DNA from: Lachnospiraceae bacterium
GTDB lineage: Bacteria; Bacillota; Clostridia; Lachnospirales; Lachnospiraceae
Direction of reading: 5' to 3'
NCBI GenBank assembly: GCA_017469935.1
Contig: JAFUFL010000022.1
Location: 1 to 64,000, forward strand
Length of the DNA: 64,000 nt
In this document: positions 36,508 through 52,516 of the stretch, in pieces
Layout of the letters: each line of letters opens with the position of its first letter
Numbering within the stretch: position 1 is the first letter of the stretch
Position numbers and translations under genes: made by a program
Notes under the pieces: model-generated
Told to the model about the DNA's origin: nothing
Seen by the model: only the letters and a program-made list of their open reading frames with translations
Databases searched by the model: none

Positions 36508-36590
36508 AACTAAAAAATAAAAGATTCTGACAGGAAAGTATTGTCCGACCTGGAAGAGCGCAAATAGTAAAGTACTTATACGACTATAAG

Positions 36591-36706
36591 GCAGGAGAAG
36601 CGTCATTTGCCCTGAATTGGTCCCAATGCGGGGATGCTTCGTTCTGCGAGTGTCTGTTTGGATTGTTTATGAGCTCTTTCACCGGTTTGGTGGAAGGGCT
36701 CTTTAT
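36591..36706 (+). promoter_or_regulatory. Leader with structured RNA and terminator hairpin before the nitrogenase-like operon
   Basis: A long stem-loop (GCAG 36591-36594 with CTGC 36644-36647; GAAGC 36597-36601 with GCTTC 36636-36640; inner ATTGG-TC-CCAAT 36616-36627) is followed by a 13-bp terminator-like stem (36671-36683 with 36689-36701) and the T-rich TTTATTTGTTATT. The ribosome binding site of the first gene starts about 20 bp later. This arrangement suggests transcription attenuation or a riboswitch. I cannot match it to a known class. A possible promoter starts with TTGTCC at 36541. Confidence 0.6.
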
Positions 36707-36736: not shown

Positions 36737-37501
36737 ATGATCAAAATTGCGATATACGGAAAAGGCGGCATAGGAAAGTCCACAATGACCTCCAACCTGG
36801 CGGCCGCTTTCGCCTATCTGGGCAAAAGAGTGATCCAGATCGGATGTGATCCCAAGGCGGATTCCACCATCAACCTGCTGGGAGGGAAACCTCTGCAGCC
36901 TGTCATGGACTATCTTCGCGAGAAAGATGAAGATCCGGAGTCCATCGACCAGATCGCCAGGGAAGGATACGGCGGCATCCTGTGCATTGAGACAGGGGGC
37001 CCCACCCCGGGACTCGGATGTGCAGGCAGAGGGATCATCGCAACTTTCAGCCTCCTGGAGGACCTTCGCCTCTTCGAGACCTACCGCCCGGACGTCGTTC
37101 TGTACGATGTCCTGGGAGATGTGGTCTGCGGCGGATTTGCGGCGCCGATCCGGGAAGGATATGCCCAAAAAGTCCTCATCGTCACTTCCGGCGAGAAGAT
37201 GGCGCTCTATGCGGCGAACAATATCTGCACGGCGGTCCGCAATTTCGAGGACCGAAGCTATGCCAGAGTGGAAGGCATCATTCTCAACAGCAGAAATGTA
37301 GAGGGCGAGAGCAGAAAAGTGGAAGAATTCGCGGCGTCCAAGGGGCTTCCCATTGTGGCGAGAATCCCGAGGAGCGACGACATTATCCGCTTTGAAGACC
37401 AGGGCAAAACAGTGATCGAGGGAGATCCGGAGCTGGAAGTCAGTAAGTGCTTCCTTGAGCTGGCGCGGGAGCTGATCGAGCAGGAAGAGAAAACAATATG
37501 A
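36737..37501 (+). CDS. Nitrogenase iron protein-like ATPase (H_A)
   Basis: From the ATG at 36737, four bases after GGAGGT, the product is 254 residues. It has the P-loop GKGGIGKS (8-15), the switch Cys95 in GLGCAGRG and Cys131 in DVVCGGF, which hold the [4Fe-4S] cluster between two subunits, as in NifH, BchL and CfbC. Such proteins use ATP to send electrons to a partner of the NifDK type. The next gene overlaps it by 4 bp (ATGA) and encodes that partner in fused form. It is shorter than NifH (about 290), which suits nitrogenase-like relatives not used for N2 fixation. Confidence 0.92.
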
Positions 37502-40095
37502 ACAGAGCAAAAAGTTATACAGTCAGTGAATTATGGGAGAGAGGAAGGGATTCGATCCCGGAGGATATGAAGTCCTCCACACATCTGATCTACAGTTCAC
37601 CGGCGACCCTTTCTTTCAATTCGCCGGGCGCGGAAGGCTTCGGCGTCAAGAGAGCCGGCCTGTCGGTCCCCGGATCGGTCATGCTGATCGTATCGCCCGG
37701 CTGCTGCGGGAGAAATACTTCGTCCATAAGCACGCTGAAGGGATACGAGAACCGCTTTTTCTATCTGACCATGGATGAGACGGACCTTGTCACCGGAAGG
37801 CACCTTCGCCGCATACCCAAGGCGGTGTGTGAACTGGCAGAGAGTCTGGAGAAGAAGCCTTCTGTCATCATGATCTGCATCACCTGTGTGGACGCGCTCC
37901 TGGGAACGGATATGGAGCGAGTCTGCAGGAAAGCCGAGAAAATGCTGGACGGCATCCGCGTTCGCCCCTGCTATATGTACGCGCTGACAAGAGAAGGCCG
38001 AAAGCCGCCCATGGTCCATGTGAGACAGTCCATCTACTCGCTGCTGGAACCGATGAAAAAGAAGGCGGACAGCGTCAATATTATGGGCTATTTTGCCCCT
38101 GTCGATGAAAAGAGTGAGCTAAGAGACCTGCTCCGGCAGATCGGAGTCAAAAAGATCCGGGAAGTCTCTTCCTGTCCGGATTTCGAAGAATTTCAGAAGA
38201 TGGCGGAGGCGAACTTTAACCTGGTCCTTAATCCGGAGGCCAGGCCGGCCGCGGGAGATCTCGAGGAGAAGCTGGGGATTCCTTCCATTGAACTGATGAG
38301 ACTGTACCAGATTGACCGAATCGCCGCGCAGTACGACGCGTTTGGAGCGGCGCTGGGCGTCCGCTTTGACTACGAGGCGTACAGAGATGAGGCCAAGGCG
38401 GCCATGAAGAAGTTCAGGGAGGACTATCCGGACGCGGTCTTCAGCGTAGGAGAGGCCATCAACGCAGATCCTTTCGAGCTTGCGCTGGCACTGGTCCGGT
38501 ACGGTTTCGCCATCAGGGAGATCTTCGGGACGCTGACGACGGATTCCTATCGCTATATCCGGCACCTCGCTGTGCTGAGCCCTGAGACGAAGGTGTATTC
38601 CAACCTGGCGCCTTCCATGCTTCTGTATGAGGAAGACTCCGCAGAGCCGGAGGGAGGCTTGCACATAGCACTGGGGCGCGACGCGGGATGGTATCACCCC
38701 GGAGCCGCCTGCCTGCAGTGGGGACAGGATAAACAGCCCTTCGGATTTATGGGGATAAAACAGTTTTTTGAGGCGCTCTATGAGACCGCGCGAAGCGGGA
38801 GAAAAGACCTCTATGGGTCTTTGGTGCAGCTGGGAGAACAGGAGGACGCCGGAGCGCTTGTCAGAAGGATCGGCACAGGCACGGGCGCCGGATGCCAAAA
38901 CAGTGACGCCGACAGCACAGGCACGCAAAATACGAAGGCGGATCTTCGCCCGGTAAGCGAAAATCAGCCGCCCAAGGGCTATCGGGGCGTACTCACACCT
39001 TTCGCCCCGGACCAGTCGGGAGCGGTCTCCGTCTTCTACGAGCTGGGCGGAATCACCGTGATTTGCGACGCGGGCGGATGCACAGGCAATATCTGCGGAT
39101 TTGATGAGCCGCGCTGGTTCCGCGAGAGAAGCGCCGTCTTCAGTGCGGGACTTCGCGATATGGACGCAATCCTGGGGCGGGACGACCGCCTGATCGCGAA
39201 ACTGGCGGATACGGCAGCTCTGCTGCGGGATGGCACGGAGAAAGATCCCGCCTTTACCGCGATCGTCGGAACGCCGGTACCGGCTGTCATCGGGACGGAT
39301 TTCAAGGCCCTGGAGAGGATGGCCAAGAAGAAGACAGGCCTTCCCTGCATCGGGATCGCCTGCGACGGCATGGAGTATTATGACAGAGGCGTCGAGAAGG
39401 CGTATCTGGCGCTGTTTGAAAAATTTGAGAAAATCGGGTTCGCCCGGAAAACGGATGAGACGGAGAAGTCCCGCGATCGGATCGGCATTCTGGGTGCCCA
39501 ATATATGGACCTGAGCGGCTTTGCGGATTTTGCGGCGCTCAGGGAAGAGGCCGAAAAGATGACCGGAAAGCAGGCCGTTATTTTCGGAAGCAGGGAGGAC
39601 GGCGTCCTTTCTTTTGCGGATCCTCAGAGCCTTAGCGAGGTCATTGTCGTGACGGTCTCGGGCTATGAGGCCGCGAAGAGACTGGCGGCAAAATATGGAA
39701 CAGCGCTGCGCTTTCACAACCCGCTCGCGGAGAAGAAGATCCGGGAGATCGTCTCAAAACTGCCTGCAGTTGATAAGGATAGCGTGTCAAAGACAGGCGT
39801 CAGCGGAAAGAAGATCCTAGTTGTTTACGAACAGGTGACAGCAAATTCCTGCAGGGAAGCGCTCCTGGAACTCGGAGCAGCCAAGGTGGACGCCGCCTCC
39901 TGGTTCATGATGAAAGAAGAACTGCGCGGTGACGGCGACCTGCAGCTCAGAGAGGAGTCTGACATCGCCGAAGCCGTTCGCAGAGGAGGTTACGACATGA
40001 TCATAGCGGATCCTGTCATGATTCCTTTGGTCGGGCGATATTTTGACGGGGTGTTTGCGGATCTTCCCCACTTTGCGGTGTCAGGTAAATTATGA
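37498..40095 (+). CDS. Fused D-K nitrogenase component 1-like protein (DK_A)
   Basis: This 865-residue protein contains two NifD/K-like halves. The first (about 1-440) has Cys69-Cys70 in SPGCCGR and Cys127/Cys130 in CITC. A hydrophilic linker (about 455-495) leads to the second (about 495-865), with Cys523, Cys528 and Cys533 in the [11 protein letters not shown] segment. In the second half the Cys normally preceding the IGTD segment is Val590, unlike the homologous free protein at 47484. It overlaps H_A and hypF by 4 bp each. No FeMo-cofactor ligands can be assigned. I infer a reductase in hydrogenase cofactor assembly, not N2 fixation. Confidence 0.85.
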
Positions 40096-42530
40096 TCGAA
40101 AATACGACAAGAACACTGAGAATCAAAGTATACGGCATAGTGCAGGGAGTGGGCTTTCGTCCCACGGTCGCGCGCCACGCGGCCACTGCGGGAATCACGG
40201 GCTCGGTCTGTAACAAGGGACCCTATGTGGAGATCTTTGCACAGGGAAGCGAGGAGCAGACGCAGAATTTTGTGAATCTGCTGGAGAAGAAGCCGCCGAG
40301 AAGAGCGGCGGTCCTCAAGACGGATGTCCGAAATGCGGACGATTCGGGGCGCTCTTTTGACTCCTTCGAGATCATCGAGAGTGCCAAAACCAAGGGAGAA
40401 ATCTTCATCTCGCCGGATATCGCGATCTGCGAGGAGTGCAAGGCGGAGCTCTATGATCCGTCGGACAGACGGTATCTGCACCCGTTCATTAACTGCACCT
40501 GCTGCGGGCCGCGCCTGACGATTCTGGATGCGCTTCCTTATGACAGAGAGCGGACCAGTATGAAGATGTTTCCCATGTGTCCGCAGTGCGCGCAGGAGTA
40601 TCACTCTCCCTCGAGCAGGCGCTATGACGCGCAGCCCGTGTGCTGCAATGAATGCGGGCCGCAGGTCTATCTGGCCGGCGAAGAATCGGTGCGGGGGAGA
40701 GAGGCAATCACAAGGACGCGCAGGATCATCGCCGAGGGCGGAATCGCGGCGATCAAAGGAATCGGAGGCTTTCACCTCTGCTGCGACGCGACCAACGAAG
40801 AAGCGGTGGCAAAGCTGCGGGCAAGAAAGACCAGGCCGGTCAAGCCCTTTGCCGTCATGATGCGGGATGAGGCGGTCGCGGAGCGGGAGTGCGTGATCAG
40901 TGAGCGGCAGAAGGAGATCCTCACCGGGCACCAGAAGCCGATTCTCCTGCTGGAGAAAAGGCCGCAAGGAAGGCTGTGTCCCTCTATTGCGCCGGGAAAT
41001 CCGACAGTCGGCGTCATGCTCCCGTATGCGCCGGTACAGCTATTACTGTTTGATTACACAGATGAGATCAAAATGCCGGACTGCCTTGTCATGACGAGCG
41101 GCAATGTGTCGGGCGCCCCTATCTGCAGGGATGACAGCGAGGCACTGCAGGAGCTCGGGAATCTGTGCGACTGTATTTTGTCCCACGACCGGAAGATCCG
41201 GATCCGGGCGGACGACTCGGTCATGGATTTCTATGACGACGAGCCCTATATGATCCGCCGATCCAGGGGCTACGCGCCGCTCCCTTACATGCTGTCCGCA
41301 TGGGGCGAGAGCGTGGGAGAAGGAAGCGGCACAGGAATTCTGGCTATCGGCGGAGAACTGAAGAATACATTCTGCATCGGAACAGGGGGACTTTTCTATC
41401 CGTCTTCCTATATCGGAGACCTGGCGGACCTTCGCAGCGTTAAGGCGCTGGAGGAGACGACAGAGAGATATGCGCGGCTCCTGGAAGTGACGCCGCAGGT
41501 CATCGCCTGCGACATGCATCCCCGATACAACTCAGTAACAACGGCCCTGGAGCTGGCGGAGAAGATCGGCAGGGAACAGGGAGGCGGACTGCTTCCCGTC
41601 GTGCGGGTGCAGCACCACTACGCACATATCCTGAGCTGTATGGCGGAAAACGACTTTTCGGAACGCGTGATCGGCGTGTCCATGGACGGAACCGGATACG
41701 GAACGGACGGGACAATCTGGGGCGGAGAGATTCTGACTGCGGACTATCGATCTTTTGACAGGGCAGCCAGTATAAGGCCCTTTGTACAGGTGGGCGGCGA
41801 TCTGTCCTCCCGGGACGGATGGAGGATCGCGGTTTCCATGCTGCACAGCATCGGTAAGGCAGAAGAGGCGGACTCGCCGCTGGCTGATGCCGGCAGGGTC
41901 ATAAAAGAGCTCGAACTGTGCACTGAGCAGGAGGCGGCCGTCCTGAGAAAAATGGCGGACCGAGGACTCAACGCGGTGACATCCACAAGTGCGGGACGGC
42001 TGTTTGACGCCGTGAGCGCGATCTGCGGGATCTGCAGGCATTCCACCTTCGAAGGGGAGGCCTCCATGGCACTGGAATTTGCCGCCGAGCGGTATGAGAA
42101 AGCGGTCGGGAAATCCGAACCCGGCGATGGGCAATCGGCAGTTTCTTCTGCGTGGAATGAAAACGCGGAGACTGTGAGCAAAAGCGAAGACGGAAGGCTG
42201 ATCCTTCCCACGGAAGCAATCGTCAGAGAGATCACGCTGGGAAGACTGCGGGGAGAAGAACCGGACAAGCTGGCCTTTCTCTTCCACAAAAGGCTTGCGG
42301 ATCAGATCATCGAGGCATGCTGTGAGATCCGCAAGGAAAACGGAGTCGGAACGGCGGCCCTGAGCGGCGGGTGCTTCCAGAACAGGCTTCTGCTGGATCT
42401 GGTCAAAAAAGGGCTGGAGAGGCGGGGCTTCCGGGTGCTGATTCATCATCTGGTGCCGCCTAATGACGGAGGAATTGCGCTGGGGCAGGCGGTGGCCGCC
42501 CAGCAGAGAGTATTAGATAGAGCACTGTAA
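40092..42530 (+). CDS. hypF: Hydrogenase maturation carbamoyltransferase HypF
   Basis: The 812-residue protein has all HypF parts: an N-terminal acylphosphatase domain (QGVGFRPTVARHA), two zinc-finger pairs (CEECK...CTCCGPR and CPQC...CCNECGP), a YrdC-like domain (KPFAVMM) and a Kae1-like domain with QHHYAHILSCMAEN and SGGCFQN. HypF uses carbamoyl phosphate and ATP to carbamoylate the C-terminal Cys of HypE, the first step of making cyanide ligands. It overlaps the upstream nitrogenase-like gene by 4 bp, so the two systems are transcriptionally and probably functionally linked. Confidence 0.97.
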   Translation: MIENTTRTLRIKVYGIVQGVGFRPTVARHAATAGITGSVCNKGPYVEIFAQGSEEQTQNFVNLLEKKPPRRAAVLKTDVRNADDSGRSFDSFEIIESAKTKGEIFISPDIAICEECKAELYDPSDRRYLHPFINCTCCGPRLTILDALPYDRERTSMKMFPMCPQCAQEYHSPSSRRYDAQPVCCNECGPQVYLAGEESVRGREAITRTRRIIAEGGIAAIKGIGGFHLCCDATNEEAVAKLRARKTRPVKPFAVMMRDEAVAERECVISERQKEILTGHQKPILLLEKRPQGRLCPSIAPGNPTVGVMLPYAPVQLLLFDYTDEIKMPDCLVMTSGNVSGAPICRDDSEALQELGNLCDCILSHDRKIRIRADDSVMDFYDDEPYMIRRSRGYAPLPYMLSAWGESVGEGSGTGILAIGGELKNTFCIGTGGLFYPSSYIGDLADLRSVKALEETTERYARLLEVTPQVIACDMHPRYNSVTTALELAEKIGREQGGGLLPVVRVQHHYAHILSCMAENDFSERVIGVSMDGTGYGTDGTIWGGEILTADYRSFDRAASIRPFVQVGGDLSSRDGWRIAVSMLHSIGKAEEADSPLADAGRVIKELELCTEQEAAVLRKMADRGLNAVTSTSAGRLFDAVSAICGICRHSTFEGEASMALEFAAERYEKAVGKSEPGDGQSAVSSAWNENAETVSKSEDGRLILPTEAIVREITLGRLRGEEPDKLAFLFHKRLADQIIEACCEIRKENGVGTAALSGGCFQNRLLLDLVKKGLERRGFRVLIHHLVPPNDGGIALGQAVAAQQRVLDRAL

Positions 42531-42540
42531 GGAGGAAAAT

Positions 42541-42753
42541 ATGTGTGTAGGACTTTCTGCGAGAGTAGTCAAGATCAATGAGAACGGTACGGCGCTTGTA
42601 GACGCCAGCGGAGCAAAGAGGCAGGTCTCCGCGCAGCTCCTTGAAGATCTGGAGCCGGGCGATTACGTCATGGTTCACGCGGGAGCCGCTATTTCCAAGA
42701 TCACCGGTGATGACCAGTCGGAGACGCAGGATCTTCTGGAGGCGTATTTATGA
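42541..42753 (+). CDS. hypC: Hydrogenase maturation chaperone HypC
   Basis: This 70-residue protein begins MCVGLSARVV, with the essential Cys2 that binds iron in HypC. HypC works with HypD as the scaffold on which Fe(CN)2CO is built and then carried to the hydrogenase. A GGAGG site lies before the ATG and the end overlaps hypD by 4 bp. Length is slightly short for the family but complete. Confidence 0.95.
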   Translation: MCVGLSARVVKINENGTALVDASGAKRQVSAQLLEDLEPGDYVMVHAGAAISKITGDDQSETQDLLEAYL

Positions 42754-43820
42754 GTCAGAACAGCACAAATACGGCCGGCGACAAGAAAAAGAGCGCGCTG
42801 GACATTCTCAAGAATTACAGCGGACCCGAAGTGCGGATCATGGAGGTGTGCGGCACGCACACCCACGAGATCTTCCGCCTGGGCATCCGCAAAATATTGC
42901 CGAAGAACATTCGCCTGATCTCCGGGCCGGGATGTCCGGTCTGCGTGACGCCGGTCATTTTTATCGACGAGGCGCTGCTTCTGGCCCTCGAACACGGCTG
43001 CACGATCTGCACGTTCGGCGATCTGGTGCGGGTGCCTGGCACGTCATCGAGCCTTCAGAAGGCGCGCGGCGAAGGGGCCAAAGTACAGGTCGTCTATTCC
43101 CCGGCGGACGCGGTGGATTACGCGGCCGCTCATCCGCAGGAGCAGGTGGTCTTTCTGTCAGTAGGCTTTGAGACCACGACACCTTCCGTGTGCCTGGCGG
43201 TACAGTCGGCGCAGGAGAAGGGAGTGGAGAATTTCTCTGTTTTGACCGCCAATAAGACCATGCCCGGAGCCTATGAGGCCATGAAGGACAGCACGGACCT
43301 GTACCTGTATCCCGGTCATGTGCACGCGATCGTCGGAACGGGGATTTGCGAGGAGCTGGCGGCGCGCGGCGTGAGCGGCGTCTGCGCAGGGTTTACGGCG
43401 GCGGAGCTCGTGACGGCACTGGCCGTGGCAGTGACCAAATTCGAGAAGGGGGAGCCTTTCTTCGTCAACTGTTACCCCAGAGTGGTCAGGCCCCAGGGGC
43501 AGCCGGCGGCGGTCCGCCTTGTGGACTCTATGATGGAGCCCTGCGACAGCGAGTGGAGAGGAATCGGCGAGATTCCGCTCTCCGGCATGAAACTGAGAGA
43601 TTCCTACGCGCAGTTTGACGCGAGGATCAAATTCAATCTGCCCAAAGTGGAGGGAAAGAGCAATCCCGCCTGCCGATGCGGGGAGGTCCTGCAGGGCAAA
43701 TGCCTGCCCTCCGACTGCAAGGTTTTCGGCAAAGTCTGCACGCCCGAGCACCCCATCGGAGCCTGTATGGTATCCGGAGAGGGCGCCTGTTCGGCTTTCT
43801 ATCTGTATGGAGGAGAATGA
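42750..43820 (+). CDS. hypD: Hydrogenase maturation protein HypD
   Basis: The 356-residue protein has the HypD motifs CGTHTHEI, GPGCPVC and VGFETTTP, and the C-terminal cysteine set (NPACRCGEVLQGKC, later Cys residues near CMVSGEGAC) that binds a [4Fe-4S] cluster. HypD with HypC attaches the cyanide ligands and CO to iron. It overlaps hypC by the ATGA junction and is 1 bp from hypE. The family call is certain. Confidence 0.97.
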   Translation: MSQNSTNTAGDKKKSALDILKNYSGPEVRIMEVCGTHTHEIFRLGIRKILPKNIRLISGPGCPVCVTPVIFIDEALLLALEHGCTICTFGDLVRVPGTSSSLQKARGEGAKVQVVYSPADAVDYAAAHPQEQVVFLSVGFETTTPSVCLAVQSAQEKGVENFSVLTANKTMPGAYEAMKDSTDLYLYPGHVHAIVGTGICEELAARGVSGVCAGFTAAELVTALAVAVTKFEKGEPFFVNCYPRVVRPQGQPAAVRLVDSMMEPCDSEWRGIGEIPLSGMKLRDSYAQFDARIKFNLPKVEGKSNPACRCGEVLQGKCLPSDCKVFGKVCTPEHPIGACMVSGEGACSAFYLYGGE

Positions 43821-43821
43821 G

Positions 43822-44832
43822 ATGAGTAAGAGCGATACAGTAACACTGGCGCACGGCGCCGGAGGCAAGCAGACCTCCGAGCTGATCGACCGCGTCTTCA
43901 AGGCACATTTTCAGAACCCGCTCTTTACGGCGGACGACGCGGCCGTGATCGATGTCGAGAAGGGAAAGATCGCCATGTCCACGGACGGCTTCATCGTATC
44001 TCCGGCCTTCTTTGCGGGCGGCAATATCGGCAAGCTCTCGATCTGCGGCACGGTCAACGACCTGGCCTGCATGGGCGCCGTGCCCAAATATCTCACCTGC
44101 GGATTTGTCATCGAAGAGGGCTTTCCCATGGATCAGCTCGAGGAGATCGCCGCCGCCATGGAGAAGACGGCCGCGGAAGCGGGCGTGAAGATCGTAGCAG
44201 GTGACACCAAGGTCGCCGGAAAGGGACAGGTGGACGGCGTATTCATCAACACGACGGGTGTCGGCATCATTCCCGAGGGCATTCGCACCTCCGGTGCGCT
44301 GGCAAAGCCCGGCGACGCCGTCATTGTGACCGGCGACATCGGAAGACACGGCTGCACGATTCTTCTCGAGAGAGAGGACTACGGGATTGAGGCGGACGTC
44401 ACCAGCGACTGCGCGCCCCTTTCGGGAGCGGTACAGGCTGCCCTGACCGCTGTCCCCGAGATCCACGTCATCCGAGACGCCACAAGAGGCGGCGTAGGCA
44501 CCGTTCTCTACGAGATCGCGGCGCAGAGCGGCGTCGGCGTGAACCTGGAAGCGGCGGCCATCCCGGTCGATCCGGCCGTAAAGGGCGTCTGCGGACTGCT
44601 GGGCCTGGAGCCGCTGTATCTGGCCTGCGAAGGCCGGCTCGTAATGATCTGTCCCGAGGAGAGCGCGGAGCTTCTGCTGGAGACACTCCGGGCCTGCAAA
44701 TATACCGAGGGCGCGGCTATGATCGGCCGGATCACGGATCAGATGCCCGGAAGAGTGACCATGACCACAGAGATCGGGGCGCAAACGCTCCTTCCCCAGC
44801 CCGGAAATGAGCTGCTTCCCAGAATCTGCTGA
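43822..44832 (+). CDS. hypE: Carbamoyl dehydratase HypE
   Basis: From the ATG at 43822, with AGGAGA upstream, the product is 336 residues; a longer open frame from 43615 overlaps hypD and is rejected. It has the HGAGGKQ start, the FTADDAAVID-type metal-binding region of PurM/HypE enzymes, and ends PRIC. The C-terminal Cys336 receives the carbamoyl group from HypF and HypE dehydrates it to thiocyanate, the cyanide donor for iron. All four Hyp steps needed for Fe(CN)2CO (F, C, D, E) are therefore present together; HypA and HypB, which deal with nickel, are not. Confidence 0.97.
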   Translation: MSKSDTVTLAHGAGGKQTSELIDRVFKAHFQNPLFTADDAAVIDVEKGKIAMSTDGFIVSPAFFAGGNIGKLSICGTVNDLACMGAVPKYLTCGFVIEEGFPMDQLEEIAAAMEKTAAEAGVKIVAGDTKVAGKGQVDGVFINTTGVGIIPEGIRTSGALAKPGDAVIVTGDIGRHGCTILLEREDYGIEADVTSDCAPLSGAVQAALTAVPEIHVIRDATRGGVGTVLYEIAAQSGVGVNLEAAAIPVDPAVKGVCGLLGLEPLYLACEGRLVMICPEESAELLLETLRACKYTEGAAMIGRITDQMPGRVTMTTEIGAQTLLPQPGNELLPRIC

Positions 44833-44854
44833 AGTGACTTTCGGAGGGACCGGT

Positions 44855-45124
44855 ATGAGCATAGAGACGAGAGTGGCGGTGATCTCGATCATCGTGGAGA
44901 ACGAGGACGCCGCGCAGAAGATCAATGAGATCCTTCACGAATACCGCGGGTACGTGATCGGCAGAATGGGCATCCCCTACAGGAGCAAGGGCATCAATAT
45001 CATCAGTGTCGCCGTGGACGCGCCGCAGGAGAAGATCAGCGCCCTGTCGGGCCGGATCGGAAGGCTTCCGGGCACCAGTGCCAAGACGGCCTATTCCAAT
45101 GTGATCACCAAAACGGAGATCTGA
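44855..45124 (+). CDS. TM1266-family [FeFe]-hydrogenase-associated protein
   Basis: The ATG at 44855 follows GGAGGG by six bases and gives 89 residues. The protein looks like an ACT/ferredoxin-like small domain (VAVISIIVEN near the start, then GYVIGRMGIPYR). It matches the TM1266 family, named a putative regulator of the iron-only hydrogenase system because it sits beside HydEFG genes in many anaerobes. Its presence here points to [FeFe]-hydrogenase-type maturation. The function is not established. Confidence 0.88.
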   Translation: MSIETRVAVISIIVENEDAAQKINEILHEYRGYVIGRMGIPYRSKGINIISVAVDAPQEKISALSGRIGRLPGTSAKTAYSNVITKTEI

Positions 45125-45151
45125 TAACGCAAATTTAGTAACGGAGACAGA

Positions 45152-47338
45152 ATGATCAGAATAGCTTTTTACGGCAAAGGCGGCATCGGGAAATCGACGA
45201 CCGTTTCAAACTTATCCCGCTACTGGGCGGAGCGCGGCATGTGCGTGCTGCAGATCGGCTGCGATCCCAAGGCGGACTCCACGCTGAGCCTTCGCGGCGG
45301 AGCAGAGCTTCCGACTGTCATGGAGATGGTACGAAGGAGGGAGCCGTTTGCTCTCGAGGACGTGATCTGCGTACGCGAGACCGAAGGCGGAGGCAGGATT
45401 ATCTGCGCGGAGGCCGGCGGGCCTACGCCCGGGCAGGGCTGCGCGGGCCGCGGAATCATCACGGCGCTGGAGACCTTGCGGGACAAGGATATTTTGGCAA
45501 AATACAGGCCGGATATCATTCTCTATGACGTCCTGGGCGATGTGGTCTGCGGCGGATTCGCCATGCCCATGCGGGAGGGATTCGCCAACAGAGTCTACGT
45601 CCTGACATCCGGGGAGAACATGGCCATCTACGCGGCCGCCAATATCGGCCTGGCCGTGCAGGGGTTCAAAGAAAGAGGGTACGCGCAGCTGGGCGGACTG
45701 ATCCTCAACCGCCGGAATGTAAAGCGAGAAGAGGAGAAGGTGCAGGAGCTGGCAGAGGACCTGCACACGGAGGTGATCGGCCGGCTGGAGCGGTCCGAGA
45801 CGGTGCAGGAGGCGGAAGAGCAGGGCACCACTGTCATGGAAGCCTTTCCGGACTCCGACATGGCGGCCGCCTACAGGGATCTCGCGGACAGGATCGCGCG
45901 GGACTGCCAAATTCAGTATCCGGCCGCTGAACGATCTTTTGGCGGGGCAAAAGAGTGCTCCCTCTCGGATCTGTCCGGAAATCCTGCCAGGATTCCCATC
46001 GGAGAGGCCTCCTTTCCGGCTCCGTTTACGGCGGGACTGGAGTTCAACGCGCCCGTCCACGAGACCTGGAACATCGTCCACATCGGCATGCTGATGCCGC
46101 AGGCCCACCAGATCTACATCTGTTCGGACAACTGCATGCGGGGCGTCGTGATGACGGCGGCGGAGATGAACGCGATCGAGCGCTTTTCCTGCGTCGTTCT
46201 CGAGGAGAAGGACATGCAGGGCGGGAACCTGGAAGAGATCACGCTGGAAGGGATCACGGACGTGCTGGGCAAGATTCGTCAGAAGCGAGGCGAGGAAGGG
46301 CTTCCCAAGGCAGTCCTGGTCTTCCCGGTGTGCCTGCACCACTTTATGGGGTGCGACATGGGCTATGTCTACAGGGAACTGGAAAAGAGATTTCCGAGCA
46401 TTGTCTTCGTGAAATGCTGGATGGATCCCATCATGCAGAAGACCGGCCCTACGCCCGACCAGAAGCTGCGAAAAGCCATGATGGACGTGCTGCCGCTCTG
46501 TGAAGGCAGAACCGGGCATACGGCCCTTCTCGGGGATATCTATGCGCTGGATCCGGAGAGCGATCTCATGAAGCTGATCCGGAGAGCAGACGAGAAGAGG
46601 GGGACGGTCTCGGAGCCGCTGCAGATCCAGGACTGCGGGACACTGGAAGAGTACTGCAAGCTGTCTGGCAGGGAAGTGATGATCACTCGAAGCCCTCTTT
46701 CGGAAGTTTCCATAAGGCAGACGGCAAGGAGACTGGGCGCCGCGCCGCTCTATCTCCCGGCGGCCATAGGGTACGGTCAGATCAGAGAGCTTACGGAGAA
46801 GGCGGCGCAGGTCCTCGGAGTTACTTTGGAAGAAGCCGGGATCAATCCCGCGGCGGAAGAGAAGGCCTGCGACGACGCGATCCTTCATCTGAAGGGCCTG
46901 ATCGGGGATACTCCCATCGCGATCGACTATATCTGCGTGCAGCGGCCTCTGGGGCTTGCGAAGCTCCTTCTTGAGCGGGGCCTGAATGTCAGGGAAGTCT
47001 ACCTGGACGCGGTGAGCCCCGAGGAGCAGGAGGACTTCGACTGGCTGCGGGACAATCACGGCCAAGTGCTCCTGTGCAGCACGATCCATGTCAAGGGACG
47101 CCTTCTCCACGCGCAGGGAATCGACAGGCAGCACAGCGATTATCTGGCGGTAGGGCCCAAGGCGGCCTGGTTCTGCGGGACGCGGCATTTCGTCAACCTG
47201 GTGGATTACGGCGGCATGTGGGGGTACAGCGGGATCCGCAAGCTCGCGGCGCTCATGGAAGACGCCTTTGTAAACGCCAAGGACACCAAGGACCTGGTGC
47301 CCAGAAAAGGACTGGGGTGCGAGAGCATTGTCATGTGA
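45152..47338 (+). CDS. Fused nitrogenase H-D-like protein (HD_B)
   Basis: This 728-residue protein joins an iron protein-like ATPase (about 1-255) to a component 1-like domain (about 290-728). The H part has P-loop GKGGIGKS (8-15), Cys97 in GQGCAGRG and Cys133 in DVVCGGF. The D part has Cys324 and Cys328 (ICSDNCMRG) and Cys394 and Cys401 (FPVCLHHFMGC), comparable to the P-cluster ligand positions of NifD. The D part resembles the first half of DK_A. The fusion implies reductant delivery within one chain. It may pair with the K-like protein after 145 bp. N2 fixation is unlikely. Confidence 0.85.
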   Translation: MIRIAFYGKGGIGKSTTVSNLSRYWAERGMCVLQIGCDPKADSTLSLRGGAELPTVMEMVRRREPFALEDVICVRETEGGGRIICAEAGGPTPGQGCAGRGIITALETLRDKDILAKYRPDIILYDVLGDVVCGGFAMPMREGFANRVYVLTSGENMAIYAAANIGLAVQGFKERGYAQLGGLILNRRNVKREEEKVQELAEDLHTEVIGRLERSETVQEAEEQGTTVMEAFPDSDMAAAYRDLADRIARDCQIQYPAAERSFGGAKECSLSDLSGNPARIPIGEASFPAPFTAGLEFNAPVHETWNIVHIGMLMPQAHQIYICSDNCMRGVVMTAAEMNAIERFSCVVLEEKDMQGGNLEEITLEGITDVLGKIRQKRGEEGLPKAVLVFPVCLHHFMGCDMGYVYRELEKRFPSIVFVKCWMDPIMQKTGPTPDQKLRKAMMDVLPLCEGRTGHTALLGDIYALDPESDLMKLIRRADEKRGTVSEPLQIQDCGTLEEYCKLSGREVMITRSPLSEVSIRQTARRLGAAPLYLPAAIGYGQIRELTEKAAQVLGVTLEEAGINPAAEEKACDDAILHLKGLIGDTPIAIDYICVQRPLGLAKLLLERGLNVREVYLDAVSPEEQEDFDWLRDNHGQVLLCSTIHVKGRLLHAQGIDRQHSDYLAVGPKAAWFCGTRHFVNLVDYGGMWGYSGIRKLAALMEDAFVNAKDTKDLVPRKGLGCESIVM

Positions 47339-47394
47339 GGGCGGCCCGCATGCGGCGCAGCGTCTCGAGCTGCGAACCTTGTAAGCGTGATGAA

Positions 47395-47474
47395 AAGCAT
47401 TTGAACAGTTTCTGAGAAGCATTTGAACAGTTTCTGAGAAGCATTTGAACGGTATCAGAAAAGCATTTGAACAG
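47395..47474 (+). repeat. 22-bp tandem repeat reaching the K_B ribosome binding site
   Basis: AAGCATTTGAACAGTTTCTGAG occurs at 47395-47416 and 47417-47438 exactly. A diverged copy lies at 47439-47460, and the first 14 bp of a fourth at 47461-47474. The fourth runs into AGGAGG, the ribosome binding site of the next gene. The period is constant at 22 bp. Confidence 0.93.
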
Positions 47475-47483
47475 GAGGAATCT

Positions 47484-48734
47484 ATGCGACAGGCATACCG
47501 AATTCTGCCGGTCTATACGGGAGACGTATCCGGCGTGTGCAGCGCCCTGTACGAGCTGGGCGGCATGGTGGTCATGCACGACCCGTCGGGCTGTAATTCC
47601 ACCTATAACACACATGACGAGATCCGATGGTATGACCGGGACAGCCTGATCTTTCTGTCGGGACTGTGCGAGCCGGACGCGATTATGGGAAATGACGCCA
47701 AATTCATCGAGGACGTGGTCAGGGCCGCGCAGGAGTTTTCTCCCGCCTTTATAGCGCTGTGCAACTCGCCGATCCCGTATCTGACGGGGACGGATTTTGC
47801 AGGGATCTGCCGGATCATCGAACACCGGACCGGGATTCCCTCCTTCTACATTCCGACCAACGGGATGCACGACTATATCAGCGGAGCCGGGCTCGCCTTC
47901 GAGAAGCTGGCGGAAAAGCTTTTCGGGGAGGGAAATCCGGAAAGCGCACAGGTCGACAGGAAGGAGTCCGGGAAGCAGGAATCCGGGCGCAGGGAGTCTG
48001 ATCATCAGGAGTCCGGGCGTGAGAACAGAGAGATCCGTGTCAATATTTTGGGTATGACGCCTCTGGACTATGCGGCGGATACCTGCTGCGGTTCTCTGAG
48101 AGAGATTCTGGAGGCCGAGGGCTTCCGCGTGGTGTCTGTATGGGCCATGGGAGATACCCTGGAGCAGCTCCGGAAGGCTGGCGATGCCGACGTCAACCTT
48201 GTCGTCTCCGCCAGCGGTCTCAGGGCCGCGCGCTATCTGCAGAAGTGCTTCGGTACGCCCTGGGTGGCGGGCGCCCCCGTGGGAATCGCGGCGAAAGAGC
48301 TGCTTGAGAGACTCCGGCAGGCGGCTGCCGGGGGAGAGAGCGGACCCTTCTACGGGCGCGGCCGGGAAGAGACGCGGGATCTCCCGCAATGCATCGTGAT
48401 CGGAGAGCCGGTCCTGTCCTGCAGCATCGCGGAGGACTGCGAGGCGAAGGACATGCGCACTAAAGTGATCGCGGCGACCGAGGAGAGCGAATCCCTGCTT
48501 CGGCCAGGTGACCTCATCTGCCGTGGCGAAGAGGAAATCGAGAATACCCTGAAGGTGCTGTGCAAGCCCGGGACCTTGGTCATTGCGGACCCCATGTACG
48601 GTTATGTGCTTCCGGAGGGAGCCGAGCTGGAGGAGGCGCCGCACCTGGCCTTCTCAGGAAGGATCTACCGAAAGAGATTCCGGGATCCGTTCCAAGGAGG
48701 ATTCATTACGAAAGGAGAGAGCGATGGGACTTAA
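47484..48734 (+). CDS. Nitrogenase component 1 K-like protein (K_B)
   Basis: The 416-residue product, from the ATG at 47484 five bases after AGGAGG, is homologous to the second half of DK_A: both share the SG-x4-x-YELGG segment, the GC-N motif and IGTD/TGTDF. It keeps Cys19, Cys37, Cys62 and Cys93, enough for a bridging iron-sulfur cluster with HD_B. A Lys/Glu/Ser-rich insertion lies at about residues 155-185. It overlaps hydF by 11 bp. With HD_B it forms the second H/D/K set of the operon. Confidence 0.85.
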   Translation: MRQAYRILPVYTGDVSGVCSALYELGGMVVMHDPSGCNSTYNTHDEIRWYDRDSLIFLSGLCEPDAIMGNDAKFIEDVVRAAQEFSPAFIALCNSPIPYLTGTDFAGICRIIEHRTGIPSFYIPTNGMHDYISGAGLAFEKLAEKLFGEGNPESAQVDRKESGKQESGRRESDHQESGRENREIRVNILGMTPLDYAADTCCGSLREILEAEGFRVVSVWAMGDTLEQLRKAGDADVNLVVSASGLRAARYLQKCFGTPWVAGAPVGIAAKELLERLRQAAAGGESGPFYGRGREETRDLPQCIVIGEPVLSCSIAEDCEAKDMRTKVIAATEESESLLRPGDLICRGEEEIENTLKVLCKPGTLVIADPMYGYVLPEGAELEEAPHLAFSGRIYRKRFRDPFQGGFITKGESDGT

Positions 48735-49923
48735 CGCTGTGCCTTCGGGCGAGAGAGTGCATATCGGCTTTTTCGGCAGAAGAAATGCCGGAAAATCCAG
48801 CCTCGTCAACGCGGTGACCGGCCAGGAGATCTCCGTGGTCTCCGACGTAAGGGGCACGACCACGGATCCTGTGACCAAGTCCATGGAGCTGCTTCCTCTG
48901 GGACCGGTGGTCATCATCGACACGCCCGGATTTGACGACGAAGGAGCCCTGGGCGAAAAGCGCGTGGCGCGGGCCAAAAGAGTGATGAACCGGACCGATC
49001 TGGCCGTCCTTGTGCTGGACGCGCAGACCGGCATGTCGCAGGCGGACATCGAGCTCCTGGCGCTGTTTAAAGAGAAACAGATTCCTTATCTTATCGTCTG
49101 CAACAAGGCGGATCTTCTCACACCGGACGCGCAGTCAGGACCTGATATCCTCTATGTGAGCGCGAAGAGTGGACAGGGGATTCATGATCTCAAGGAGAAA
49201 ATTGCCGCTCTGGGAACGGCCGGCGCCGTCAAGAAGTACCTGATCGAGGACCTGATCGAGCCCTCCGAGGTTGTGCTTTTGGTGATTCCCATCGACAAGG
49301 CGGCTCCCAAGGGACGTCTCATCCTGCCTCAGCAGATGATGATCCGGGGGATCCTCGACGCGGACGGCATACCGGTCTGTGTCAAGCAGGACCGTCTGCC
49401 GGAAGTCCTGGAAAAGCTGGGCGAAAATGCAAAGCCCGGTCTGGTCATCACGGACAGCCAGGTCTTCTCGGAGGTGGCGAAGGCGGTTCCGGAGGGGATC
49501 CCGCTCACATCCTTCTCTATTTTGATGGCAAGGTACAAGGGATTTCTGGCCTGTGCACTGGAGGGCGTTAAAAAGATCGACGACCTCAGGGACGGAGATA
49601 CAGTCCTGATTTCCGAGGGCTGCACGCACCACAGGCAGTGCGGCGACATCGGCACGGAGAAGATCCCGAACTGGATCCGGCAAAAGACCGGGGCGGATAT
49701 ACGCTTCGAGACCTCCTCGGGAACGGGCTTTCCGGAGGACCTGAGTAAATACGCCTTGGTCATCCACTGCGGGGCCTGCATGCTGGGCGACCGCGAAGTG
49801 CGCTACCGCATGAAGTGCGCGCAGGACCAGGGGATCCCCTTTACAAATTACGGAACGGCGATCGCCCACATGAAGGGCATTCTTGAGAGAAGTACGGAAA
49901 TAGTGCGAGATGAACAGAATTGA
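48724..49923 (+). CDS. hydF: [FeFe]-hydrogenase maturation GTPase HydF
   Basis: From the ATG at 48724 the product is 399 residues. The GTPase domain has GRRNAGKS (18-25), TTT (45-47), DTPG (66-69) and NKAD (127-130). The C-terminal iron-sulfur motif C300-x-H302...H348-C349-x2-C352 fits the HydF consensus CxHx(44-53)HCxxC. HydF is the scaffold on which the [2Fe] subcluster of the H-cluster is finished and from which it is passed to HydA. It overlaps the K-like gene before it and hydE after it, so hydF is clearly part of this operon. Confidence 0.97.
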   Translation: MGLNAVPSGERVHIGFFGRRNAGKSSLVNAVTGQEISVVSDVRGTTTDPVTKSMELLPLGPVVIIDTPGFDDEGALGEKRVARAKRVMNRTDLAVLVLDAQTGMSQADIELLALFKEKQIPYLIVCNKADLLTPDAQSGPDILYVSAKSGQGIHDLKEKIAALGTAGAVKKYLIEDLIEPSEVVLLVIPIDKAAPKGRLILPQQMMIRGILDADGIPVCVKQDRLPEVLEKLGENAKPGLVITDSQVFSEVAKAVPEGIPLTSFSILMARYKGFLACALEGVKKIDDLRDGDTVLISEGCTHHRQCGDIGTEKIPNWIRQKTGADIRFETSSGTGFPEDLSKYALVIHCGACMLGDREVRYRMKCAQDQGIPFTNYGTAIAHMKGILERSTEIVRDEQN

Positions 49924-51040
49924 GAGAACCCAGGAACTGGTCGGAATCCTGGAAAGGGAACATGCGCTTTCGGACGAGGCGCTGAGCGACCTCCTTGACA
50001 TTCTGGAGGAGACGGGCGCGGAGCGCACCGTGCAGATCCGCGATGCCATACCGGCCGCCGTGTGCACGCCCGAGGAGGCGGTCCTGTATGCCGCCGCGCG
50101 AAAGGTAAGGGAGCAGTATTACGGAAAAGACGTCTATCTGCGAGGACTCATAGAGTTCACCAACTACTGCAGGAACGACTGCCGGTACTGCGGCATCCGC
50201 AGGAGCAACACCAAGGCGGAGCGCTACAGGCTCAGCGACGAGCAGATTCTGCGCTGCTGCGGGCAGGGATATGCGCTGGGTTTTCGGACCTTTGTCCTGC
50301 AGGGCGGCGAAGACATGTACTATACAGATGAGAGAATCTGCGGGATTGTGAGAGCAATCCGGGAGAGATATCCGGACTGCGCCATAACGCTTTCCATCGG
50401 GGAAAAGAGCAGGGAGTCCTATCTGGCGTACAGGGAAGCAGGGGCGGACCGCTATCTTTTGCGGCAGGAGACTTCGAACCCGGAACATTACCGGTACCTT
50501 CATCCCGCACAGCTCTCCATCGAGAACCGGAAGCGGTGCCTCAGCGACCTCAAGGAGATCGGCTACCAGGTCGGCTGCGGGATCATGGTGGGGTCCCCCG
50601 GGCAGACGAGGGAGCACATTATAGAGGACCTGCGCTATATGCAGGATTTCGGGCCGCATATGATCGGGATCGGGCCTTTTATCCCGCACAAGGACACTCC
50701 CTTTGCGGACGAGAAGGCGGGGAGCCTCTATGACACGCTGCATCTTCTGGCCATCATCCGGCTTATGCTCCCGGGCGTGCTCCTTCCGGCCACCACGGCG
50801 CTGGGCACGATCCACCCGGCGGGCAGGGAACTGGGGCTGCTCGCAGGCGCCAATGTCATCATGCCCAACATCTCGCCGGGGGATGTCAGGGGCAAATACC
50901 TGTTATACGACGGCAAAATATGCACCGACGACGAGGCGGCCGCCTGCGGAAGGTGCATCGACCTGCGGATCCGCAAAGCGGGGTATATAACCGCGATGAG
51001 CCGGGGAGACTGCGCCGGATTTGATACTGCACACAAGTGA
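49910..51040 (+). CDS. hydE: [FeFe]-hydrogenase maturation radical SAM enzyme HydE
   Basis: The 376-residue protein has the radical SAM cluster motif Cys87-x3-Cys91-x2-Cys94 (CRNDCRYC) and a second C-terminal C-x7-C-x2-C set as in the Thermotoga enzyme. HydE acts on the iron-CO-CN unit normally made by HydG, producing the precursor that HydF assembles into the diiron subcluster. hydG is missing from this cluster; the Hyp genes may supply the iron unit instead (inference). It overlaps hydF by 14 bp. Confidence 0.96.
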   Translation: MNRIERTQELVGILEREHALSDEALSDLLDILEETGAERTVQIRDAIPAAVCTPEEAVLYAAARKVREQYYGKDVYLRGLIEFTNYCRNDCRYCGIRRSNTKAERYRLSDEQILRCCGQGYALGFRTFVLQGGEDMYYTDERICGIVRAIRERYPDCAITLSIGEKSRESYLAYREAGADRYLLRQETSNPEHYRYLHPAQLSIENRKRCLSDLKEIGYQVGCGIMVGSPGQTREHIIEDLRYMQDFGPHMIGIGPFIPHKDTPFADEKAGSLYDTLHLLAIIRLMLPGVLLPATTALGTIHPAGRELGLLAGANVIMPNISPGDVRGKYLLYDGKICTDDEAAACGRCIDLRIRKAGYITAMSRGDCAGFDTAHK

Positions 51041-51058
51041 GGAAAGGAAGGACGAAAG

Positions 51059-52423
51059 ATGGAATACAGGATCGAACACGACTCCATGGGAGAGATGAGA
51101 GTGCCCGCGGACAGCTACTGGGGCGCGCAGACACAGAGAAGTTATCAGAACTTTCCGATCGGGACGGAGAAAATGCCCGCGGAGATCATCCGGGCTTTTG
51201 CCGTCTTAAAGAAAGCGGCGGCCCTTGCCAATCACAGACTGGGAAAACTTGACGAGAAGCGCTGCGCCCTGATCGGACAGGTCTGCGAGGAGATCAGGCG
51301 CGGGGAGCTGGACGGGCAGTTTCCGCTGGCGGTCTGGCAGACCGGGAGCGGCACCCAGTCCAATATGAACGTCAACGAGGTGATCGCGAACCGCGGCAAT
51401 GAGATCGCCGGAGAAAAGCTCCTGCATCCCAACGACACCGTGAATATGTCCCAGAGTTCCAACGACACTTTCCCCACGGCTATGCACATCGCGGCCGTGA
51501 CCGCCATCCGGCAGCAGCTGATCCCCGCACTGGACGCCATGATCGCAGAGATGAGCAGGCTGGAGAAAGAAAACGAGGGCGTCGTAAAGAGCGGACGGAC
51601 CCATCTGCAGGACGCGGTTCCGATCGCCTTCTCCCAGGAGATCAGCGGCTGGCGGTCCATGCTTGAAAAGTGTAAAGGAATGATCCTGGACTCCGAGAAG
51701 GGGCTCACCGAGCTTGCGCTCGGCGGAACGGCCGTCGGAACCGGCCTCAACGCGCCGGCAGGGTTTGCGGAGGAAGCCGCGAAGGCGGTCTCGGAGCTGA
51801 CCGGATATCAGTTCCGGACGGAAGAGAACAAGTTCCACGCGCTCTCCGCCAAGGACGCCGTCGTCTACTCCCACGGGGCGCTCAAGGCGCTGGCCGCGGA
51901 CATGATGAAGATCGCCAATGATATAAGGTGGCTCTCGAGCGGTCCCCGGTGCGGTCTCGGCGAGATCTTTATACCGGAGAACGAGCCGGGAAGCTCCATC
52001 ATGCCGGGCAAGGTCAACCCCACCCAGTGCGAGGCGGTGACCATGGTCGCCGTGCAGGTCATGGGCAATGACACCGCAGTCGGAATCGCCGCCTCCCAGG
52101 GCAATTTCCAGCTCAACGTCTTCATGCCCGTGATCATCTATAATTATCTGCAGTCTGTAAGGCTCCTCGCGGATGCCCTGAACTCTTTCAGGATCAACTG
52201 TGTGTGCGGCATCAAGGCAAACCGAGAGAAGATGAACCACAACCTGCACAACTCGCTCATGCTGGTCACGGCGCTCAATCCTTACATCGGCTATGAGAAC
52301 GCGGCCAAGACGGCGAAACTTGCCCACAAGGAGAACATCTCCCTCAAAGAGGCCTGTGTGAAACTGGGCTTCCTGACGCCGGAGAGATTCGACGAAGTGT
52401 TCCATCCCGAGCAGATGGTCTGA
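51059..52423 (+). CDS. fumC: Class II fumarase
   Basis: The 454-residue protein has the class II motifs: [27 protein letters not shown] and the signature [15 protein letters not shown]. It interconverts fumarate and malate with no metal cluster. Aspartase is the close alternative, but the C-terminal pattern and length favour FumC. It starts 18 bp after hydE and ends before a terminator, so it closes the operon. Why fumarase belongs here is unclear; fumarate metabolism may be linked to redox balance. Confidence 0.92.
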
Positions 52424-52479
52424 GCTCAGATGAATTGCGTTCAATACTCCGGGACCCGGGCACTATAGCAAAATATACC

Positions 52480-52516
52480 CCTGCCGCAGGAAAATCTTGC
52501 GGCAGGGCGTTTTTTC
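52480..52516 (+). terminator. Terminator of the hyd/hyp/nitrogenase-like operon
   Basis: A perfect 10-bp stem (52480-52489 with 52499-52508) is followed by six T residues, 56 bp after fumC. Confidence 0.95.

Follow-up and report, generated by a model that had tools for sequence, protein, structure and literature searches.

The window analysed here is a 64,000-nucleotide stretch from a Lachnospiraceae bacterium (assembly GCA_017469935.1, contig JAFUFL010000022.1, forward-strand positions 1-64,000), whose genome assembly is 98.55% complete. Between 36737 and 52423 lie twelve genes, all on the plus strand, in which neighbours overlap or are separated by gaps of at most about 150 nt, in the order NfH_A, NfDK_A, hypF, hypC, hypD, hypE, TM1266, NfHD_B, NfK_B, hydF, hydE and fumC. 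Gene calls and family and domain scores bear out the original prediction of such a run, which includes two nitrogenase-like sets, one made of NfH and a fused NfDK and the other of a fused NfHD and NfK.

The operon is preceded by a conserved leader RNA motif (36527..36558, + strand). Its strict pattern matched 26 times in 20 distinct sequence contexts across the window and 296 loci, and all 26 matches stand upstream of NfH_A. Rfam searches gave no family at gathering level for the motif, in the window or in six other loci, two leader stretches had matches solely below the gathering score and to unrelated families, and consensus folding yielded little. An attenuator-like hairpin with a 14-bp stem and a following T-run (36671..36701, + strand) lies 35 nt 5' of the first gene; its stem core was found in 16 of 62 upstream regions versus 16 of 3100 control windows. 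A terminator-like hairpin (52479..52507, + strand; 13-bp stem and T-run) stands 3' of the last gene.

NfH_A (36737..37501) encodes a NifH-like ATP-dependent reductase (PF00142, 302 bits), and NfDK_A (37498..40095) fused nitrogenase component 1-like D and K domains (PF00148, 142 bits in two stretches), whose counterparts are separate D and K genes in Blautia and others. NfHD_B (45152..47338; PF00142, 266 bits) fuses NifH-like and D-like domains; its component-1 part alone scores 21.6 bits (E 1e-4), under the Pfam cut-off of 28.6, and it holds the same place in relatives, most of which, among those examined, carry separate genes. NfK_B (47484..48734) is nitrogenase component 1-like (PF00148, 100 bits) and found no match in the viral contigs searched with it. 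The NfH domains of the window reach 314 (NfH_A) and 294 bits against the nifH equivalog cut-off of 394, and the best NCBIfam model for NfDK_A, nifE, gives 89 bits where 505 are needed. All NfHDK proteins fall under all the NCBIfam equivalog cut-offs listed, and they do not classify as a nifH/nifD/nifK nitrogenase. A structural model of NfDK_A built from nine sequences is of mid-confidence (mean pLDDT 68.4), so that only its fold class was used; the best match was NifEN (E 2e-22), followed by the MoFe protein and methylthio-alkane reductase. The FeMo-cofactor ligands of NifD are Cys275 and His442. The position of this cysteine is aligned with Asn in NfD_A and, by comparison with NifE, with Ser in NfK_B. 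C130 of NfD_A aligns with one P-cluster-type cysteine site; the SPGCC and NfK sites are presumed to be P-cluster-type cysteines by motif alone.

The hyp genes comprise hypF (40092..42530; TIGR00143, 750 bits, cut-off 466), hypC (42541..42753; PF01455, 80 bits, Cys2 present), hypD (42750..43820; TIGR00075, 362 bits, cut-off 193) and hypE, with a C-terminal PRIC (43822..44832; PF00586/PF02769). HypD Cys 34, 62, 65, 308, 310, 323, 330, 339 and 347 each have a frequency of 1.00 (to two decimals) in 78 aligned module rows, as does the terminal Cys336 of HypE in 73, and judged from these alignments the catalytic cysteines of both proteins are intact in the module. The hyp genes are followed by a TM1266-family gene for a putative hydrogenase-system regulator (44855..45124; TIGR03959, 112 bits, cut-off 61), the reading frame of which is open from 44807. 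Both hydF (48724..49923; TIGR03918, 541 bits, cut-off 326) and hydE (49910..51040; TIGR03956, 539 bits, cut-off 255) are clear, the hydE product matching the solved HydE 4jy8 with 304 bits; assignment of hydE as PylB or BioB was ruled out by scores of 163 and 95 bits, respectively. The last gene encodes a class II fumarase (fumC, 51059..52423; TIGR00979, fumC_II, 735 bits, cut-off 665). The aspA usual in hyd operons was ruled out for it, as the aspA score lies below its cut-off; the link of hyd operons to ammonia-lyases is noted in PMC11736057.

Distribution of the module and of HydG

Module matches were found in 163 stretches of a collection of 84,980 species, 80 of which were kept for inspection. 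The gene arrangement recurs in relatives, and in the 80 loci it appears as pieces broken by contig ends. The hosts are Lachnospiraceae (Blautia, Roseburia, Coprococcus), Coriobacteriia (Olsenella) and one Desulfovibrionaceae MAG, and human gut carriers include Blautia, Roseburia faecis, Coprococcus comes and Eubacterium ramulus. A fumC after hydE was seen in the window and three close relatives and in only one of the 80 other loci (many of which stop short there), and fumC is probably a passenger outside the core module.

The original prediction had noted that hydG is absent from the window, and had named a hydG elsewhere in the genome as evidence against itself. Profile search extends the absence to the whole assembly, in which the sole TIGR03955 match is hydE itself (64 bits, cut-off 312). 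Likewise, no HydG above the cut-off was found among 37 genomes from the genus, among 50 carrier genomes, drawn from the 80 loci as 13 isolates and 37 MAGs (the latter chosen by taxon and contig size), or among the carriers of the order sample described below; a hydG elsewhere in the genome was thus rejected. Gene-order conservation and its correlation with hydG absence, which the original prediction had proposed to survey, are both seen, as the order recurs and HydG is missing in the carriers examined. HydE above the cut-off is present in 49 of the 50 carriers and a HydA-type match in all 50. The window's genome has two HydA genes, and the H-cluster motifs TSCCPGW, PCTAKKFE and MACPGGCINGGGQP are present. 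Every one of the 13 isolates encodes one or more HydA copies that carry the full set of three motifs, some extra copies having TSCSP instead.

A second case raised against the original prediction was that the Hyp genes serve an [NiFe] hydrogenase and stand near hydE and hydF by chance. The window's genome does contain an Ech-type [NiFe] hydrogenase, and the window's hypF could be shared with it because no hypF was seen in the portion of the Ech operon examined; moreover, 4 of the 17 carriers within the genus have an [NiFe] large subunit (PF00374), as do 6 of the 50 carriers. However, the Ech operon is adjoined by its own hypC, hypD and hypE, and the remaining 44 carriers, including all 13 isolates, have no large subunit, which largely refutes this explanation. 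The HypD sequences also speak against it: 93 of 97 rows, the module ones among them, share 55% identity or more with the HypD of the window, whereas the four outliers (42-45%) are non-module copies, including the Ech-linked HypD of the window's genome. We consider such a chance arrangement highly improbable.

In an order sample of 294 genomes, each at least 90% complete, HydG occurs in 0 of 13 carriers versus 137 of 281 others (Fisher p 2.6e-4, relatedness not corrected). A genome counted as a carrier if its NfD_A-type match to alignment A1 scored 380 bits or more. Two genomes with about 410 bits over both halves (G365 and G384) were excluded as a sister type, neither having a HydG match and the G365 locus being without hyp or hyd neighbours; G195, with B-type genes only, at a contig end, was also excluded. 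In ten genomes whose NfHDK matches were weaker or of the sister type, no hyp neighbours were seen, and the hyd neighbours amounted to one 27-28% GTPase match at most; two with weak NfHDK matches (G112 and G297) have HydG. Of the 13 carrier loci, eight including the window's were examined, and hyp genes were present in seven, the exception being G278, in which 20 kb was examined.

A separate set of 61 relatives, six of which are the same records as members of the 50 carriers, includes 33 genomes with HydE, and here HydG was found in 0 of 17 carriers versus 12 of 16 non-carriers (p 5e-6). The four HydE genomes lacking both HydG and the module are G025, G027, G036 and G052 (67%, 82%, 85% and 99% complete, respectively); the HydE of G027 nests among module HydEs and those of the other three do not. 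In the same set, 24 of 57 HydA-bearing genomes have no HydE above the cut-off, among them the near complete G004 and G057, whose HydA has full motifs, and HydA presence alone is therefore no proof of a need for maturases.

The job of HydG might instead fall to a protein encoded elsewhere, either ThiH-like or a HydG that escaped recognition, with the module having another function. A ThiH-like match to the HydG profile (about 172-206 bits) occurs in 18 of the 50 carriers, but in the other 32 no match to this profile exceeds 74 bits, a level that HydE itself attains, against the HydG cut-off of 312, and the mutual exclusivity of module and HydG in the order sample is also contrary to this idea, which we hold to be very unlikely.

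The module and HydG are mutually exclusive in the sampled genomes and share HydE and HydF

The same HydE and HydF occur with either the module or HydG. The HydE tree has 65 rows, 40 of them from the module; three of these (L151, L171 and L181) come from source genomes outside the HydG-checked set. Module and HydG labels alternate on it, with at least eight changes on supported branches, and six of six informative independent pairs are opposite (sign test p 0.031). A single module-HydE clade is rejected by the AU test (p 4e-7; a test devised after the tree was inspected). The HydF tree forces fewer label changes (four), and its pair test is not significant. At an 80% threshold, no position distinguishes the groups in HydE (41 module versus 21 HydG rows) or in HydF (40 versus 22). 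A separate, re-purposed clade of module HydE was accordingly rejected by the HydE tree, the AU test and the position comparison. In 20 HydG loci taken from HydG-bearing family mates, hydG is adjoined by hydE in 12, hydF in 14 and TM1266 in 15.

These trees bear on whether the nitrogenase-like proteins could be the client, with Hyp, HydE and HydF making an Fe-CO-CN cofactor for a new catalyst. The two DK-type pairs do resemble NifDK and NifEN, and the predicted fold relates them to homologues that are catalytic in nitrogenase and methylthio-alkane reductase. Against this, with a HydA-type match in 50 of 50 carriers and HydG in none, HydA would lack a known precursor source; NfD_A and NfK_B align Asn and Ser, respectively, with the cofactor-binding cysteine of NifD; and the module swaps with HydG over the same HydE. 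A client role is consequently unlikely, if less remote than the other alternatives.

HydE and HydF might also act with no dedicated source of CO and cyanide, using trace amounts, or HydA might be mostly apo. Two genomes (G052 and G036) have HydE and HydF without either supplier, and in PMC9431212 HydF produced alongside HydE but without HydG reached about 1% activation, a level that adding CO or cyanide doubled; both points count for this reading. Yet a module of at least nine genes that served no purpose would hardly be retained and travel together with HydE and HydF, and carrier species have documented hydrogenase activity: PMC12773636 gives H2 formation and H2:methyl viologen activity for B. 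luti, which expresses hydM rather than hydA, and cites about 23,000 mU/mg for B. schinkii. The B. luti strain concerned, DSM 14534, differs from the genomes searched here (MSK strains). We regard reliance on trace sources, or a largely apo HydA, as very improbable.

A candidate HydG-independent route to the H-cluster

The standard account has HydG supply both the CO and the cyanide of the H-cluster. Our preferred reading is that the run is very probably a [2Fe] H-cluster maturation operon in which the NfHDK pairs and HypC, D, E and F stand in for HydG. The comparative genomics strongly support the replacement claimed in the original prediction, and on this sequence evidence the module most probably replaces HydG; the supply of HydE by Hyp, the other part of that claim, is inferred and leaves the nitrogenase-like proteins without a role. 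Several observations weigh against the preferred reading: the four HydE genomes that lack both HydG and the module, the HydA genomes without HydE, the weaker signal of the HydF tree, the lack of hyp genes in the stretch examined of G278, and, for B. luti, the different strain assayed and the expression of hydM. The Hyp proteins yield Fe(CN)2CO, whereas HydE works on a unit bearing two CO and a single cyanide, and an additional step is therefore required. HypF and HypE would convert carbamoyl phosphate to cyanide and, as happens for [NiFe] enzymes, transfer it to iron bound on HypC-HypD. ATP-driven NfH might then act as electron donor to both DK-type pairs; these might modify the Fe-CN unit by adding CO (e.g. 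from CO2 reduction) or swapping one cyanide, giving HydE an Fe(CN)(CO)2 synthon of the same kind as the HydG product. HydE would dimerise it, and HydF would complete the cluster and hand it over to HydA, as in the known pathway. The Hyp proteins are likely the source of the Fe-CN unit, while the particular role in CO supply suggested for the nitrogenase-like pairs is tentative and rather doubtful.

The module resembles HydEFG maturation in its hydE and hydF, which exceed the cut-offs and intermingle with HydG-associated copies in both phylogenies, in its TM1266 neighbour and in its HydA clients, but has NfHDK and HypCDEF in place of HydG. It has all four proteins of the HypCDEF branch of [NiFe] maturation, with the HypD and HypE catalytic cysteines, although most carriers have no [NiFe] large subunit. 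It shares NfH and D/K pairs with NifEN, DPOR, CfbCD and methylthio-alkane reductase, the mid-confidence modelled fold being closest to NifEN, the MoFe protein and methylthio-alkane reductase; unlike that superfamily, it combines two dissimilar D/K pairs with Hyp and HydEF and has equivalog scores under the cut-offs and a replaced cofactor-cysteine position. It is plausible, on balance, that the H-cluster route is HydG-independent and joins Hyp, nitrogenase-like and HydE/HydF lines, with module and HydG interchangeable and swapped many times in gut bacteria.

The original prediction was not aware of a description of the combination. The association of nitrogenase-like and maturation genes is partly in print: the portion of Dos Santos et al. 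2012 (PMC3464626) available to us describes two closely linked NifHEN-like sets each in Coprococcus catus and Dorea longicatena and, for C. catus and further Firmicutes, links them to hydrogenase maturation proteins and suggests that they take part in assembling the active-site metallocluster. Those sets are probably the module, in strains outside the genomes searched here. That portion contains nothing on HydG absence or replacement, and our literature search found no report of HydG replacement.

If the module replaces HydG, biology would have another way, besides HydG, of making an Fe-CO-CN precursor that HydE accepts, nitrogenase-like proteins would gain a new function as hydrogenase maturases, and the swap would allow the same HydE to be compared with either supplier. 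NifH matches in gut and rumen surveys may then be hydrogenase maturases, not nitrogenases, and hydEFG-based genome screens will overlook real [FeFe]-hydrogenase users. Across the gut and rumen, many bacteria seem to assemble the hydrogenase iron catalyst with Hyp- and nitrogenase-type genes in place of HydG, and the gut carriers matter because hydrogen production there is relevant to health.

Organisation and distribution of the module

The predicted run of twelve plus-strand genes was borne out as a single run (36737-52423) with a terminator-like hairpin on its 3′ side (52479-52507); hypF, hypD, the TM1266 regulator gene, hydF, hydE and fumC each exceeded the cut-offs of curated models, and HypC and HypE were clearly recognised by Pfam. 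Upstream of NfH_A lie a conserved leader RNA motif (window 36527-36558, about CUCUGACGGCAAGG..UCCGAGCGGGAAUAG) and an attenuator-like hairpin (36671-36701), which follows the motif in many loci. The motif recurs in loci L163, L166, L169, L173 and others, all 26 strict matches (20 distinct contexts) in the window and 296 loci precede NfH_A, and scanning the window and other loci returned no Rfam family at gathering level; we describe the motif as riboswitch-like.

Relatives were surveyed in a set of 61 genomes, 37 from the genus and 24 order mates. Of the 37 genus genomes, 17 contain nitrogenase-like genes of the module type, and in two of these only the B-type genes are present. The gene order NfH-NfDK-hypF-C-D-E-TM1266-NfH/D-NfK-hydF-hydE is kept in relatives, with the B-set H and D as separate genes in most of those read and with hydE, or hydE and hydF, detached from the remaining genes in some. 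An NfDK_A alignment matched 163 stretches of the genome collection, from which 80 loci were retained. Hosts include Blautia massiliensis, B. luti, B. schinkii, Roseburia faecis, Coprococcus comes, Eubacterium ramulus and Faecalicatena contorta among Lachnospiraceae and, beyond them, Olsenella and other Coriobacteriia, Oscillospiraceae MAGs and one Desulfovibrionaceae MAG. Neighbours were counted up to 10 kb away or as far as the contig reached, which in many cases was less: NfH 80, NfD_A 80, NfK_A 79, hypF 74, hypC 67, hypD 67, hypE 64, NfD_B 57, NfK_B 51, TM1266 44, hydF 32 and hydE 20, with hydG at none of the 80 loci in this range. In some Coriobacteriia hydE and hydF are divergent and adjoin NfH, and the Desulfovibrionaceae MAG carries hydE, hydF, both NfHDK sets and hypFCDE in one run.

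HydG and the hydrogenases of carriers

As anticipated, the window's genome (3.55 Mb, 98.55% complete) contains no hydG elsewhere, the sole match to the HydG model TIGR03955 in the whole assembly being hydE itself (64 bits). It encodes two HydA proteins, a canonical HydABC-type one carrying all three H-cluster motifs and a shorter, group B-like one. An [NiFe] hydrogenase, named in the original prediction as a competing reason for the Hyp genes, is also encoded, an Ech-type enzyme with CGIC and DPCISC motifs; because its operon (L065:5778-13682) has its own hypC, hypD and hypE, it does not need those of the window, and the window hypF may be shared with it. An [NiFe] large subunit was found in 6 of the 50 carrier genomes, HydE in 49 and a HydA-type match in all 50. 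HydG was found in none of them, in line with the predicted replacement of HydG.

HydE exceeded its cut-off in 20 of 37 genus genomes and 13 of 24 order mates, HydG in 0 and 12, respectively. Among 294 genomes of the order (at least 90% complete; carriers defined by a strong NfD_A match), HydG occurred in 0 of 13 carriers, from seven genera and three families, versus 137 of 281 others (Fisher p 2.6e-4, uncorrected for kinship); hyp genes were in place at seven of eight loci read among these carriers and were not seen in the 20 kb read of the eighth, in G278. At 20 HydG loci of HydG-bearing family mates, hydE (12), hydF (14) and TM1266 (15) lay nearby, and the module therefore shares neighbours that hydG otherwise has.

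In a phylogeny of 65 HydE rows (40 with the module, 21 with HydG, 4 with neither), module and HydG labels alternate with at least eight changes forced by supported branches, and six of six informative independent pairs were opposite (p 0.031). A single clade of module HydEs was rejected by an AU test (p 4e-7) applied once the tree was known. The tree of HydF pointed in the same direction with less support (at least four changes; sign test not significant). At an 80% threshold no position of HydE or HydF separated the module from the HydG group, although the two groups share 99 conserved positions out of 376 in HydE. HydE therefore probably acts on one and the same substrate whether the module or HydG accompanies it.

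All 13 carrier isolates encode at least one HydA with TSCCP, PCxxK and CxxGCxxG motifs, some additional copies having TSCSP instead. According to PMC12773636, B. luti DSM 14534 forms H2 and shows 14-644 mU/mg of H2:methyl viologen activity; the hydrogenases identified there are HydABC and a group B HydM, and on glucose hydM was expressed and hydA was not. The paper also cites about 23,000 mU/mg for B. schinkii, and a text search of it matched neither words beginning "matur" nor "hydE". The B. luti and B. schinkii genomes searched, of strains other than those assayed, contain the module together with HydE, and no HydG or [NiFe] large subunit was found in them. These observations come nearest to functional evidence.

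Within the 61-genome set, G025, G027, G036 and G052 possess HydE but lack both HydG and the module; of the four, G027 alone resembles a case of incomplete assembly or recent loss, because its HydE nests among module HydEs in the tree. HydE lies with HydF at L103 (G052) and L102 (G036), and HydE was seen at L101 (G025). HydE was below cut-off or absent in 24 of 57 HydA-bearing genomes of the set, and several of those read have HydA with full motifs. HydA with full H-cluster cysteine motifs, and HydE and HydG not above cut-offs, was observed in G004, G030, G057 and others (L086, L089, L100), one of these genomes being a single contig. Known maturases as yet leave some HydA genes unaccounted for.

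Nitrogenase-like proteins and a proposed route

The two nitrogenase-like sets are unlike each other: in one, NfH_A accompanies the fusion protein NfDK_A, and in the other, NfK_B accompanies the fusion protein NfHD_B. None of their genes exceeded the equivalog cut-off of the NCBIfam models matched, including nifH, nifE, DPOR and CfbC. C130 of NfD_A aligns with one cysteine site of NifD and NifE. NfD has a conserved SPGCC site and each NfK one cysteine; by motif these are putative further P-cluster-type sites. The position aligned with the cofactor cysteine of NifD/NifE is occupied by Asn in NfD_A and by Ser in NfK_B. The modelled NfDK_A fold (mean pLDDT 68) matched NifEN first. By analogy with NifEN and NifDK, the two unlike DK pairs suggest one scaffold and one reductase.

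A sister NfH-NfD-NfK set, with D and K about 30% identical and no hyp neighbours, was seen in L257-L266 (genomes G112, G226, G361, G365, G291, G151, G229, G355, G363 and G211); in L257 and L259, the two read further, it adjoins, by eye, putative iron or siderophore ABC transporter genes.

In [NiFe] maturation, as outlined in PMC6802093, HypE and HypF make cyanide from carbamoyl phosphate and HypC and HypD carry assembly of the Fe(CO)(CN)2 unit. HydG, according to PMC12752695, produces an [Fe(Cys)(CN)(CO)2] synthon that is passed to HydE. The cysteines of HypD and HypE are retained in the module. Compared with what HydE needs, the Hyp product carries one extra cyanide and is short of one CO. 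We propose that the NfH-driven DK pairs would close the gap, either by supplying CO or by removing one cyanide. Nitrogenases can reduce CO2 to CO, and can reduce cyanide.

Dos Santos et al. (PMC3464626) is prior art on nitrogenase-like genes beside hydrogenase maturation genes; it associates such genes with hydrogenase maturation proteins in Coprococcus catus and other Firmicutes and suggests that they help to build the active-site metallocluster. Among the matches listed from open-access full texts there was no paper on HydG replacement, and a text search of Welsh et al. 2025 on the gut group B hydrogenase (PMC12578642) found no mention of maturation, maturase or HydEFG. A rumen survey that used NifH to screen for nitrogenases counted them in 23% of genomes and reported low expression ratios for nifH (PMC6776011); part of these NifH counts may represent the NfH of the module.
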